From contig NC_019748.1 of the NCBI RefSeq assembly GCF_000317575.1, forward strand, positions 4,174,501-4,238,500: a DNA stretch of 64,000 bases. Direction: 5' to 3'. Positions 9,442 through 51,335 of the stretch are shown in pieces (position 1 is the stretch's first letter; each line of letters opens with the position of its first letter). Source of the stretch: Stanieria cyanosphaera PCC 7437. Lineage in GTDB: Bacteria; Cyanobacteriota; Cyanobacteriia; Cyanobacteriales; Xenococcaceae. The translations under genes were made by a program, and so were the position numbers. The notes beneath the pieces are model-generated. The model had not been told where the DNA came from, did not search any database, and saw only the letters and a list, made by a program, of their open reading frames with translations.

Positions 9442-12400
9442 ATGACCAAGCAAGTTTACCAAATCATCTTGGTAGATGAATCTTTAGAAAATTACCATTT
9501 TATTAATCAATTTTGTGAACAATTAAATCAAACTGCCAATTGTTTTTATCAACTAGATTGGTTAAATACACTAGATTTAGTTAATAACTTATCTGATTCT
9601 CCACTAGAAAAAATTTATATCATTGCTGCTCAACAATTACCATTACTGAATCATTCAACTATTACTGAATTAAAATCTCGTTGTCGTTCAAACTCAATTA
9701 TTATTTTAGTTGATAGTGATCGAACAGGCGCGAATGTAATTAATGCAGGTGCAACCGATTATTTAGATCTAACTCAACTTACCTTATCAACTCTAGAGCG
9801 AAGCTTCAGATTAGCTAAACTTGCTTTAAATCGCTCTACACAAATAGAAGCAAATTTCCAAGCTATCTTTGAACAAGCTGGAGTCGGAATTGCTTTGCTC
9901 GCAACTTCGGGACAATTCCTTCGTGTCAATCGCCGATTGTGTCAATTATTGGGTTACTCAGAAGCAGAATTGTGTTCTCTAACTTTTCAAGATCTTACCT
10001 ATGTTGACGATTTACAAGCTTCTTGGGAATATGTGGAACAAATTTTGTCTAATTCTTCCTCAGTGAAGAGTTTAACTAAAAGATATATCTGCAAAAATGG
10101 TCATCCGAGATGGGTTAACATTACTGCTTCTTTAATCAAAAATTCTCAAGACTATCCATTATATTTAATTACCATAGTAGAAGATTTTCAAGAATCGAAG
10201 CAAACAGAAGAAAAACTTCAACATCGTTTGATTTTACAACAAGCTCTAGCTAAGGCAGCTAAACAACTTACTGGTCAAGAAAAAATTAATTTTACAGAAA
10301 TTTTAGCTTGGATTGGTATTGCTGTTGGAACTAATCATGCTTATTTTGCTACTTTTGCCACAGACAACCCAGAATTTGATGGAATTTGGCAATCTAAAAC
10401 TACCTCTCACCAGATTTATCATTGGTGGGATAGTCAAACTACCGAACCAACAAACTATTTTTTTAATTCCTGTTTAATAGAAAACTTGACTTGGTTTCAA
10501 GAACAGTTTAAGTGTAATCAAAATATTATCATCTCCGATTTAAAGCGATCGCATGAGCTTAACCAACAGCAACAAGATTTATTCAAATCGCTAGAAATAT
10601 GCTCACTCTTAGCTGTCCCCGTCTATACTCCTACTAATCAACTCTGGGGAATTGTGGGTTTAGATACCAGAGGTGATAACTATAAATTTTGGTCAGAAGA
10701 AGAAGTTCAATTACTCAAAATTATCGGCAAAATTCTCTATATTTCCTGCCAACGCCTCAAAACTCAAGCCAAACTGCAAGCTTCAGAAGCACTCTACCAA
10801 AATATTTTTAATCATTCCACTGATGGTATTTTTTTACTAGCAATTCAACCTGATGAACAGTTAATTTATGAAACAATTAATCCTGCTTACGAACAAATTA
10901 TTGGCAAAAACACCACAGAAATAATTGGTAAATCAATCACAGAAGTTCTTTCTTCAGAAATCGTTCATTTATTCCTGAGACAATATCATACCTGTCTTGA
11001 GACTTTTGCTCCCCTTGATTACGAACAAACTTTAGAATTAGCTGGAGAAACTCATACTTGGCGTACTATTTTAATTCCTATCATTAATGAAGAGCAACAA
11101 GTAATTAAGCTACAAGGTAGTATCAGAGATATCACTAAAGAAAAACTTGCCATTGCAACTCAAATTCGCCACACTCGTTATCGTCATCTGTTGCGTTCTA
11201 TTACCCTCAATATTCGACAATCATTAGATTTAACAACCATTCTGCATACTACTGTAACTCAACTACAAACAACTCTTCATGCAGACCGAGTTTTATTGGT
11301 ACAATTTTTACCTGATGGAACAAGTCAAATTACTGAAGAAGAAGTAGTTGATCGTGTTTTCTCGCTTAAAGATCAAGTCGAATTAGATTCTGTTTATTGG
11401 CAACAATTAGCAGAACTATCTGTCAAAGAAAACTTCTATCTTCAACAAGACAAAAATCTTACCCAACTATCTTCTTGTGATCAACAATTTTTACAAACAT
11501 ATCATATTTGCACCAACTTAGTTTTACCAATTTTTCGTCGTCGAACAATTAAAAATAATCAGATTAAATTAGAGCAAGAAATTAATCATCTTTGGGGACT
11601 ATTATGTGTCCAACAATGTAATCAACCGCGCACATGGACTAAAGATGAAATTGAATTATTACAACAACTCGTCGGACAATTAAATCTTGCTCTTTCTCAA
11701 GCAGAATTATTAGAAAGTGAAATCAAACAGCGTCAAGAATTAGCTCGTTCTAATGCAGAATTAGAACAATTTGCTTATATTGCTTCCCATGATTTACAAG
11801 CTCCTTTACAAACAATTTCTAACTATGTGCAATTAATTGAACGTCGCTATGGTGACAAGCTAGACTCGAAAGCAGATAAATATATCAACTATATTGTTGA
11901 TGCTGTTCAAAGAATGCGTACTCAAATTAATGATTTACTGGAATATTCGCGAGTAGGCAGACAAAAAAATACTTTGCGAGCTACAGATTGTAATTTAGTA
12001 CTAGAACAAGCTTTAGCTAATCTAAGAGCAGCAATTGACTACAACCAAGCAATTATTAATTGTGAAAATAATTTACCGACGTTGATTGCTGATTTTAGTC
12101 AATTAGTTGTTCTCTGGCAAAATTTAATTAGTAACAGTATTAAATATCGTTCCTTACAACAGCCTGTAATTATCATTAATGTTCAAGCTCAAGAAAATTA
12201 TTGGCAATTTTCTATCAGCGATAATGGCATTGGAATTGAACCACAATATCAAAAACGTATCTTTCAAATTTTTCAGCGTTTACACACCCAAGAAGAATAT
12301 TCAGGTTCGGGGATCGGTTTAGCTATTTGTCAGAAAATTGTTGAACGGCACGGAGGTCGGATTTGGGTAGAATCGCAATTAGGTCGAGGGGCAACTTTTT

Positions 12401-50193: not shown

Positions 50194-50535
50194 TAAACTA
50201 AGTTAATCTAATCTTTATTTTAAAAGTAACTAATTTCAAGATTTAGTTAAATTTTGGATTCAATCCAGCCATTTCTAATTTATTATGCCATATTAATAAT
50301 AACTCTCTTGTTTAAAACTAAATGATTTGACTTTATCAATTATAGTTAGAAAAAATATATATAACTAAACTGGTAAAATAATTGTCAAACAAATGGTTTT
50401 TAACTTGCTCATGGTCATGACTAGCCATGAGTTTTTTTTTGCTAGATAATTATTTATAAATCTTACCTAATCTTGTCAAAATTATTAATTGAAATGATAA
50501 AATTTTTAACACTTGGCTTCATCACTATCTAATTT
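50194..50535. other. Intergenic region with a strong terminator
   Basis: No gene seen. It holds a hairpin terminator at 50408-50440, 215 bases after tsaB and 96 bases before dndE. The distance leaves room for a small transcript between the two. Confidence 0.55.
50408..50440 (+). terminator. Rho-independent terminator
   Basis: CTCATGG (50408-50414) pairs perfectly with CCATGAG (50425-50431) over a 10-base loop, followed by nine T. It ends either the tsaB transcript or an unannotated small RNA. Confidence 0.8.
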
Positions 50536-50961
50536 ATGAATACACCAATAGAACGCATTCGTTTATCGACAACGGCTAAAGAACAACTAATAAAACTCAA
50601 ACGTATTACTAAAATTGAACAGTGGAATATTTTGTGTAGATGGGCATTTTGTTATTCTCTAGCTGAACCTAGTATTCCTACTTCTGTGCCAATCAATTTA
50701 GATAGTAATGTCGAAATGAATTGGAATGTTTTTGGTGGAGAAATCGCAGATATTTTGCTATTAGCTCTTAAAAAAAGATGCGACCGCGATGGTTTAGAGA
50801 CAAATCAAGAAACTCTTAAAATGCAATTTATTTTGCATCTTCATCGAGGAATTAGTTATTTAGCTGGTGAATTGGATTTTAAAAATATTGACGATTTAAT
50901 TGCGATGGCTGTTCAACCAACCACAACTTTACAAACTGTTACTGAATCTAAATCTGATTAG
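50536..50961 (+). CDS. dndE: DNA phosphorothioation-associated protein DndE (orphan)
   Basis: A 141-residue protein matching DndE along its length: IERIRLSTTAKEQLIKLKRIT, then the core QWNILCRWAFCYSLAEPS, DSNVEMNWNVFGGEIADI, LKKRCDRDGL and FILHLHRGISYLAGEL. DndE belongs to the dndABCDE system that exchanges a backbone oxygen of DNA for sulfur and is reported to bind nicked DNA. No dndA, B, C, D or F/G/H restriction gene lies within the window, so the gene stands alone. A repeat begins directly after its stop. Confidence 0.85.
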   Translation: MNTPIERIRLSTTAKEQLIKLKRITKIEQWNILCRWAFCYSLAEPSIPTSVPINLDSNVEMNWNVFGGEIADILLLALKKRCDRDGLETNQETLKMQFILHLHRGISYLAGELDFKNIDDLIAMAVQPTTTLQTVTESKSD

Positions 50962-51029: not shown

Positions 51030-51335
51030 ATGTCAACAGTTAAGATAAAAATTAAAAGTCTTAATCATAAAACTATGCCACGTTTAAATCTTCATAGTTT
51101 ATCAATGCAAATAAGTCGGATGTACGAGCAGGGACAATCTTTATTTTGTACGATTAAAGTACAAGATTGGCTTAAAGAACGTAATTACGACCCTAACGAA
51201 TACGATATTATTTTTCATCATAAACCTGCGCCACCAGAATCAGGCTTAATTCAAATGGTGGAAATTGAATTGCGTCGCAAAAATGGACAACCTGTAGATA
51301 CGTGGTTACAAACGGAAGTTAATCGTTATAGTTAG
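51030..51335 (+). CDS. Uncharacterized small protein, 101 aa
   Basis: Not recognised. The sequence is basic at the N-terminus (MSTVKIKIKSLNHK), then polar, with YEQGQSLFCTIKVQDWLKER and the pattern YDIIFHHKPAPPESGLIQMVEIELRRKNG, and no membrane segment or signal. It sits 68 bases after dndE and before gdhA on the same strand. Codon use looks like that of its neighbours. Its regular beginning and fully open frame make it a probable real gene, but the function is unknown. Confidence 0.65.
   Translation: MSTVKIKIKSLNHKTMPRLNLHSLSMQISRMYEQGQSLFCTIKVQDWLKERNYDPNEYDIIFHHKPAPPESGLIQMVEIELRRKNGQPVDTWLQTEVNRYS

Follow-up and report, generated by a model that had tools for sequence, protein, structure and literature searches.

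A detached dndE gene in Stanieria cyanosphaera and the dispersal of dnd genes among cyanobacteria

Introduction

Why does a full-length dndE gene stand in a cyanobacterial chromosome with none of its usual partners beside it? The gene encodes one component of the machinery that introduces sulfur into the backbone of DNA. According to PMC4182426, phosphorothioation was lost when dndE was deleted in frame from a Salmonella dndBCDE cluster carried on a plasmid, and DndE is described as binding the coiled coil of DndD and, in a predicted DndCDE complex, lining the channel for DNA (PMC12193691). It is also reported to prefer nicked DNA in vitro (PMC9239217), and a review states that DndD and DndE are always linked (PMC10853773). 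The window analyzed here is a stretch of 64,000 nucleotides of Stanieria cyanosphaera PCC 7437 (C1:4174501-4238500, C1 being a single contig of 5,041,209 bases). An original prediction had read its gene as a DndE without the rest of the phosphorothioation system, which might act with unlinked genes or have another role as a binder of nicked DNA.

Results

The dndE open reading frame occupies positions 50536..50961 of the window on the + strand (C1:4225036-4225461 of the chromosome), starts with ATG and encodes 141 amino acids. Its product matched Pfam PF08870 with 149.7 bits (cut-off 25) over profile positions 1-110 of 111, the NCBIfam equivalog TIGR03184 with 128.3 bits (cut-off 71.85) over positions 1-103 of 104, and the PADLOC DndE model with 60.1 bits. 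The predicted full length was borne out by these matches and, judged by the three libraries, the product is a full, ordinary DndE. The closest solved structure by sequence was the archaeal DndE 7x4e (E 1.7e-5). A Foldseek search with a weak DndE model (mean pLDDT 66) also ranked 7x4e at the top (prob 1.00, E 0.04, query TM 0.48), followed by 4lrv (prob 0.98, E 0.31, query TM 0.44). The window gene was the single PF08870 match in the whole genome (5,544,990 bases, 6 contigs).

One flank of dndE holds tsaB; the other holds a 101-aa ORF (window 51030-51335, +, 68 bases downstream of dndE) and then a glutamate dehydrogenase gene. The 101-aa ORF matched nothing in Pfam, NCBIfam or PADLOC and had no homologue among the dndE loci compared. 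Between tsaB and dndE, a terminator-like stem of 9 pairs followed by a T-run (50407..50432, +) suggests that transcription from tsaB would not read through into dndE; it is a weak signal, with 1 seen against 0.5 expected (sd 0.9) in shuffles. A new conserved operon around dndE was considered and ruled out: tsaB, smpB, the 101-aa ORF, the glutamate dehydrogenase gene and ictB were absent at the other loci compared, the sole exception being one ictB homologue at L083, a locus holding dndD and dndE together. When the window was searched by tblastn with the DndB-like, HNH, DndC, 313-aa (X), DndD, PbeA-like, PbeC and methyltransferase proteins of the same genome, none was present; the dnd_assoc_4 protein of genome G191 gave no match as a query, and no match to the DndC, DndD and desulfurase family profiles was found inside the window. 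For the dnd and Pbe proteins searched, restriction-type partners included, the claim that no partner lies in the window held.

That claim did not extend to the genome. Profile searches recovered dndC (C1:2833213-2834823, -, 717.5 bits) and dndD (C1:2829967-2831949, -, 651.4 bits), both above their family cut-offs and free of internal stops, at 2.83 Mb on the same contig, with 1,390,309 bases between dndC and dndE. The PF08870 search of the genome placed no dndE in this cluster. A dnd cluster of this kind, elsewhere in the genome and without a dndE, is the very outcome that the original prediction had set as its refutation. An orphan dndE is ruled out by these searches, the description of a DndE without the rest of its system is refuted at genome level, and the isolation of the window gene is positional. 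The cluster (L041) runs DndB-like gene, HNH gene, dndC, an unassigned 313-aa gene (X) and dndD. The DndB-like gene (574 aa) is a weak match to PF14072 (30.7 bits, cut-off 29.1), and the HNH gene beside dndC encodes 315 aa. This pair (L041:14840-17526, -), upstream of dndC, had homologues among the loci compared only at L144 and L148, where they adjoin dndC in two genomes from a different order. The HNH protein weakly matched IscB/Cas9 HNH domains. The top cysteine desulfurase of the genome scored 435.4 bits over positions 1-352 of 353, and none reached the DndA cut-off of 480. In the canonical dndBCDE layout dndC and dndE both adjoin dndD; here a 313-aa gene separates dndC from dndD and dndE is far away, and we file the arrangement as a dispersed variant, not a canonical operon.

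Restriction-type partners, the PbeA-like gene and PbeC, likewise exist elsewhere on the chromosome. Three loci beyond the dndC/dndD cluster hold a PbeA-like helicase (C1:2718459-2719946, +; TIGR04095, 648 bits, cut-off 600), a phosphorothioation-associated methyltransferase (C1:2753084-2754970, -; TIGR04096, 628 bits, or 780 bits for the entire protein, above cut-off) and a PbeB-like/PbeC pair; neither of the first two genes has an internal stop. PbeC (C1:1886932-1889010, +) carries the CIC motif and matched the PADLOC PbeC model with 931 bits over 648/648 positions. A small ORF overlaps the start of its gene; its position and size make it a putative PbeB-like gene, and it matched no NCBIfam or PADLOC model. 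The PbeA-like protein covers just positions 241-681 of the 682-position PbeA model, its N-terminal part being absent, and its gene lies ~0.83 Mb from PbeC, so that PbeA-B-C-D do not form a single cluster. No TIGR04062 (PbeD-like) gene was found within the loci read, which cover part of the genome. The profile TIGR03238 (dnd_assoc_3), which we take to belong to the DndFGH restriction module, matched nothing in this genome, nor in the control genomes. We saw no shared motif upstream of the dispersed genes, the best 12- and 16-mers being no better than those of 12 shuffles.

To place this arrangement, we surveyed 388 genomes of the same class (G-numbers label genomes, L-numbers loci). DndE was present in 97, DndC above cut-off in 77 and both in 75. 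The two genes lay within 10 kb in 26 of 50 same-order genomes versus 25 of 25 from other orders; in 14 of the 24 unlinked cases the genes were distant from each other on a shared contig, and in the other 10 they were on separate contigs. A DndD profile search was run on 72 chosen genomes. From 71 with DndE extracted we drew a set of 63 in which all three proteins were read, used for trees and distances and including 12 of the 25 linked other-order genomes; DndC of G006 and G162 and DndD of G198, G149 and G162 were dropped as short or of low identity. All three genes were together in 39 of the 63; dndC-dndD stood with dndE elsewhere in 10 (including this genome), the three were all apart in 10, and dndD-dndE stood with dndC elsewhere in 4. 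dndD and dndE were thus unlinked in 20/63, all of them among the 50 same-order genomes, which contradicts the "always" of PMC10853773.

A tree built from the three proteins concatenated implied 9 changes of D-E linkage (range 7-10 in 1000 bootstrap trees) and 5 of C-D linkage (5-7), counted on an unrooted gene tree. The flanks of relocated dndE were common to small sets of genomes only: the 25 dndE genes without adjacent dndD (G149 left out) occupied about 17 neighborhoods, as judged by reading the flank comparison. Because the sampled genomes of other orders are linked, we take linkage as the ancestral state; on the gene tree, related cyanobacteria appear to have acquired the split form repeatedly. 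A separate named collection scanned for dndE yielded five loci (L073-L077). L073 holds dndC, dndD and dndE together; L074 and L075, from two Xenococcaceae MAGs with the same neighbors, and L076 showed neither dndC nor dndD within the DNA read, up to 10 kb on each side; L077 is a partial dndE match near a contig end.

Other features were seen in these genomes along the way. Many other-order genomes carry a second DndC-like protein (~400 aa, up to ~140 bits to TIGR03183) on the opposite strand near dndE (L144, L146, L147, L148, L151, L152, L154, L155, L156, L157). G296 has two nearby dndE copies (C1:7944-8273 and 10204-10533, -), one with an internal stop. Two decaying systems retain a full dndE, one with dndD in two pieces ~8.4 kb apart (L154, G162) and one with a dndD without its N-terminal part (L103, G149).

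The dispersal extends to the Pbe-type and methyltransferase genes. We tabulated by hand, for 18 genomes and with a clustering distance of 20 kb, the loci occupied by six genes (TIGR04095, PbeC, dndC, dndD, dndE and the methyltransferase). In G191 and G171 all six fit within a single locus of 13-15 kb. G252, G277 and G129 have them at two loci, G381, G266 and G348 at four, and the Stanieria genome, G022, G184, G327 and G150 at five; in four genomes of another family (G157, G300, G323, G387) they occupy six. In G351, five genes were at five loci. Besides dndE, linked clusters contain a dnd_assoc_4 gene in its own right (TIGR04062, scoring 209.8 bits in G191), with homologues in 38 of the loci read; size and place suggest that it is PbeD, PADLOC giving it no name. 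This weakened a further idea, that a single DndE serves both DndD and PbeC, which the single copy seen by PF08870 had brought up. In G191 an HNH protein gene (L166:5096-6073, +) stands between dndC and the dnd_assoc_4 gene; its product scored 124.9 bits against NF045808, a phosphorothioated-DNA-binding restriction endonuclease family, below the cut-off of 180.

Dispersed as they are, the dnd genes are largely kept or lost together. Among the 62 genomes of the same order, this genome and its family included, 50 had dndC, dndD and dndE above cut-off, 8 had none and 4 were partial. Of the partial ones, G198 has dndE and a dndD cut by a contig end but no dndC, G051 has dndC and a dndD 471 bases from a contig end but no dndE, G164 has part of dndC and a piece of dndD, and G372 is the one genome with dndE only. 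The association between dndE and dndD gave a Fisher p of 5e-9, a value that is too small since the genomes are related. A second DndD-type ATPase match (E up to 1e-30) was found in 47 of the 50 complete genomes (absent from G231, G351 and G360), and none at E up to 1e-15 in the 8 negative genomes. By score and place it is mostly PbeC-like, in G271 being another paralogue, and 32 of 33 PbeC-type loci read had the CIC motif, the remaining one lacking a readable start.

The methyltransferase and helicase followed the same pattern in samples of 36 and 38 chosen, non-random genomes, respectively, which covered 23 of the 24 unlinked genomes (all but G271), a number of linked genomes and 6 of the 8 negatives. 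TIGR04096 was above cut-off in 30/30 DndE genomes tested and 1/6 negatives, G372 showing pieces only, and TIGR04095 in 28/29 same-order dnd genomes versus 1/6 negatives. The methyltransferase occurs in two sizes, ~485-511 aa beside dndE and ~611-823 aa when unlinked (L188:4085-5971, -), the larger form having an extra copy of its C-terminal part in front.

Could the detached DndE instead do something unrelated to phosphorothioation, nicked-DNA binding for example? The E. coli and archaeal proteins are reported to bind nicked DNA in vitro (PMC9239217, PMC4182426), and the class-wide counts are asymmetric: 22 of 97 DndE genomes had no DndC above cut-off, versus 2 of 77 the other way. In 17 of these 22 the DndE match was near full (E < 1e-38), and 9 of the 17 also lacked DndD above cut-off; G372 keeps a full dndE with no dndC or dndD match above cut-off, and in G149 dndE lies beside a truncated dndD. 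However, 8 of the 9 DndD-less genomes still showed a sub-cut-off piece of dndD, so that their systems look decaying or fragmented, and of the genes dndE presents by far the smallest target to decay. The methyltransferase of G372 is in pieces as well, and apart from G372 every same-order genome lacking both dndC and dndD above cut-off (8 of 9) also lacked dndE. An independent function is thus quite unlikely, and the separate nicked-DNA role allowed for in the original prediction found no specific support, though there are cyanobacteria in which dndC and dndD have decayed and dndE is still full.

We examined the divergence of the three proteins. For dndE, dN/dS was 0.02-0.27 in 13 of 14 pairs, the remaining pair being saturated, and 0.11-0.26 between the window gene and three relatives. 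Distances of DndE and DndD were correlated (r = 0.80), in split and linked sets alike. With DndC distances held constant the correlation was 0.69 in the split and 0.45 in the linked set, against label-shuffle maxima of 0.41 and 0.39. Such correlation would fit continued interaction, but also shared ancestry. In split genomes the E/D distance ratio was 0.594 versus 0.548 in linked ones (p 7e-4) and the E/C ratio 0.967 versus 0.830 (p 3.5e-5); the D/C ratio was likewise higher, 1.632 versus 1.511 (p 0.002). DndE of split genomes thus appears to evolve modestly faster. Of the columns invariant in linked DndE, 71% were kept in all split DndE, compared with 88% in random splits. DndD (66% vs 82%) and DndC (72% vs 83%) dropped similarly, so the loss of DndE columns is confounded by phylogeny. 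In 6 hand-picked triplets the split-genome DndE was further from the outgroup in 6/6 (by 0.008-0.182), with DndD and DndC mixed. Because of this confounding and the choice of triplets by hand, we do not press the case for faster evolution after detachment.

The slightly faster DndE might also be read as a sign of decay throughout the system, with the relocated dndE and the distant cluster as relics out of use, and the 313-aa gene between dndC and dndD would fit this. So would broken pieces in relatives: dndC in two frames in G381, the TIGR04095 gene in two parts with stops in G150, and a methyltransferase match with internal stops in two dispersed genomes, G300 and G157. Against it, dndC, dndD, dndE, the methyltransferase and the TIGR04095 gene of the Stanieria genome all score above their cut-offs with no internal stops, its PbeC model is fully covered, the dN/dS values of dndE are low in all but the saturated pair, and the fully dispersed G157, G300, G323 and G387 keep dndC, dndD and dndE above cut-off without stops. 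We regard general decay as a shade less probable even than an independent job for DndE. An assembly error is scarcely credible as the source of the separation: 10 of the 24 unlinked cases do fall on different contigs, but the other 14 lie on one, including the single-contig genomes G022, G184, G327, G381 and G387, and the Stanieria dndE sits within one contig between tsaB and, past the 101-aa ORF, the glutamate dehydrogenase gene.

Discussion

We consider it very probable, from sequence comparison, that the window gene encodes an ordinary DndE that has been relocated from its operon and acts in trans with DndC and DndD in the known type of complex for DNA phosphorothioation, with a presumed role for PbeA, PbeB and PbeC. 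The part of the original prediction in which a lone dndE acts with unlinked genes gains from co-retention, purifying selection and the correlated divergence with DndD. DndE made at the window locus would join DndC and DndD made 1.39 Mb away. In such a complex DndD would be the ATPase, DndC would transfer sulfur and DndE would be the DNA-binding subunit, a housekeeping cysteine desulfurase would also take part, and PbeA/B/C would form the restriction side. A broader proposition seems to us evenly balanced: that several Cyanobacteriales-type lineages hold phosphorothioation with Pbe-type restriction as a fixed chromosomal system, no longer a compact mobile defense island, whose genes occupy as many as six loci and are for the most part retained or lost jointly, and that such a fixed system can do without linkage, whether of DndD with DndE or of modification with restriction.

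Neighborhood-based surveys would miss such dispersed systems or count them as incomplete, partial or primitive. The survey method described in PMC6459918 takes dndC and dndD within 5 kb, with 20 kb flanks, and that described in PMC8569181 takes clusters with all genes adjacent. The dispersed state amounts to a natural experiment on which components need linkage, and it speaks against describing DndD and DndE as an obligate linked pair. It also makes a prediction: phosphorothioate should persist in strains whose dnd genes are spread over five or six loci. Partial splitting of dnd genes is already known; in the literature searched we saw no report of recurrent DndD-DndE splitting or of dispersal over five or six loci.

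Compared with DndABCDE systems, the Stanieria genome is alike in having full DndC, DndD and DndE and a DndB-like protein, and may be so in having no DndA above cut-off but a near cysteine desulfurase, as where IscS substitutes; it differs in the distance of dndE from dndC. It resembles PbeABCD, the CxC ABC-ATPase system, in its PbeC with the CIC motif, the small ORF overlapping the PbeC start and the PbeA-like helicase. It differs in that this helicase lacks its N-terminal part and is remote from PbeC, and in that a PbeD-like gene was not located in the loci read. Among cyanobacteria, toxic Microcoleus is described as having dndBC separated from dndDE by 40 kb or more (PMC8546630), and thus shares dnd genes on separate loci; that text keeps dndDE together, a legend being ambiguously worded, whereas our genome splits dndD from dndE and disperses the wider set of genes as well. 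Microcystis PCC 7806, as described in PMC2442094, also has dndC, dndD and dndE without a clear dndB, but there the three are still clustered despite low synteny. Cyanobacterial dnd configurations are called varied and incomplete in PMC8569181, which reads them as primitive or as the outcome of long vertical evolution. Our data fit long vertical evolution better than a primitive state: the genes have moved and are not missing.
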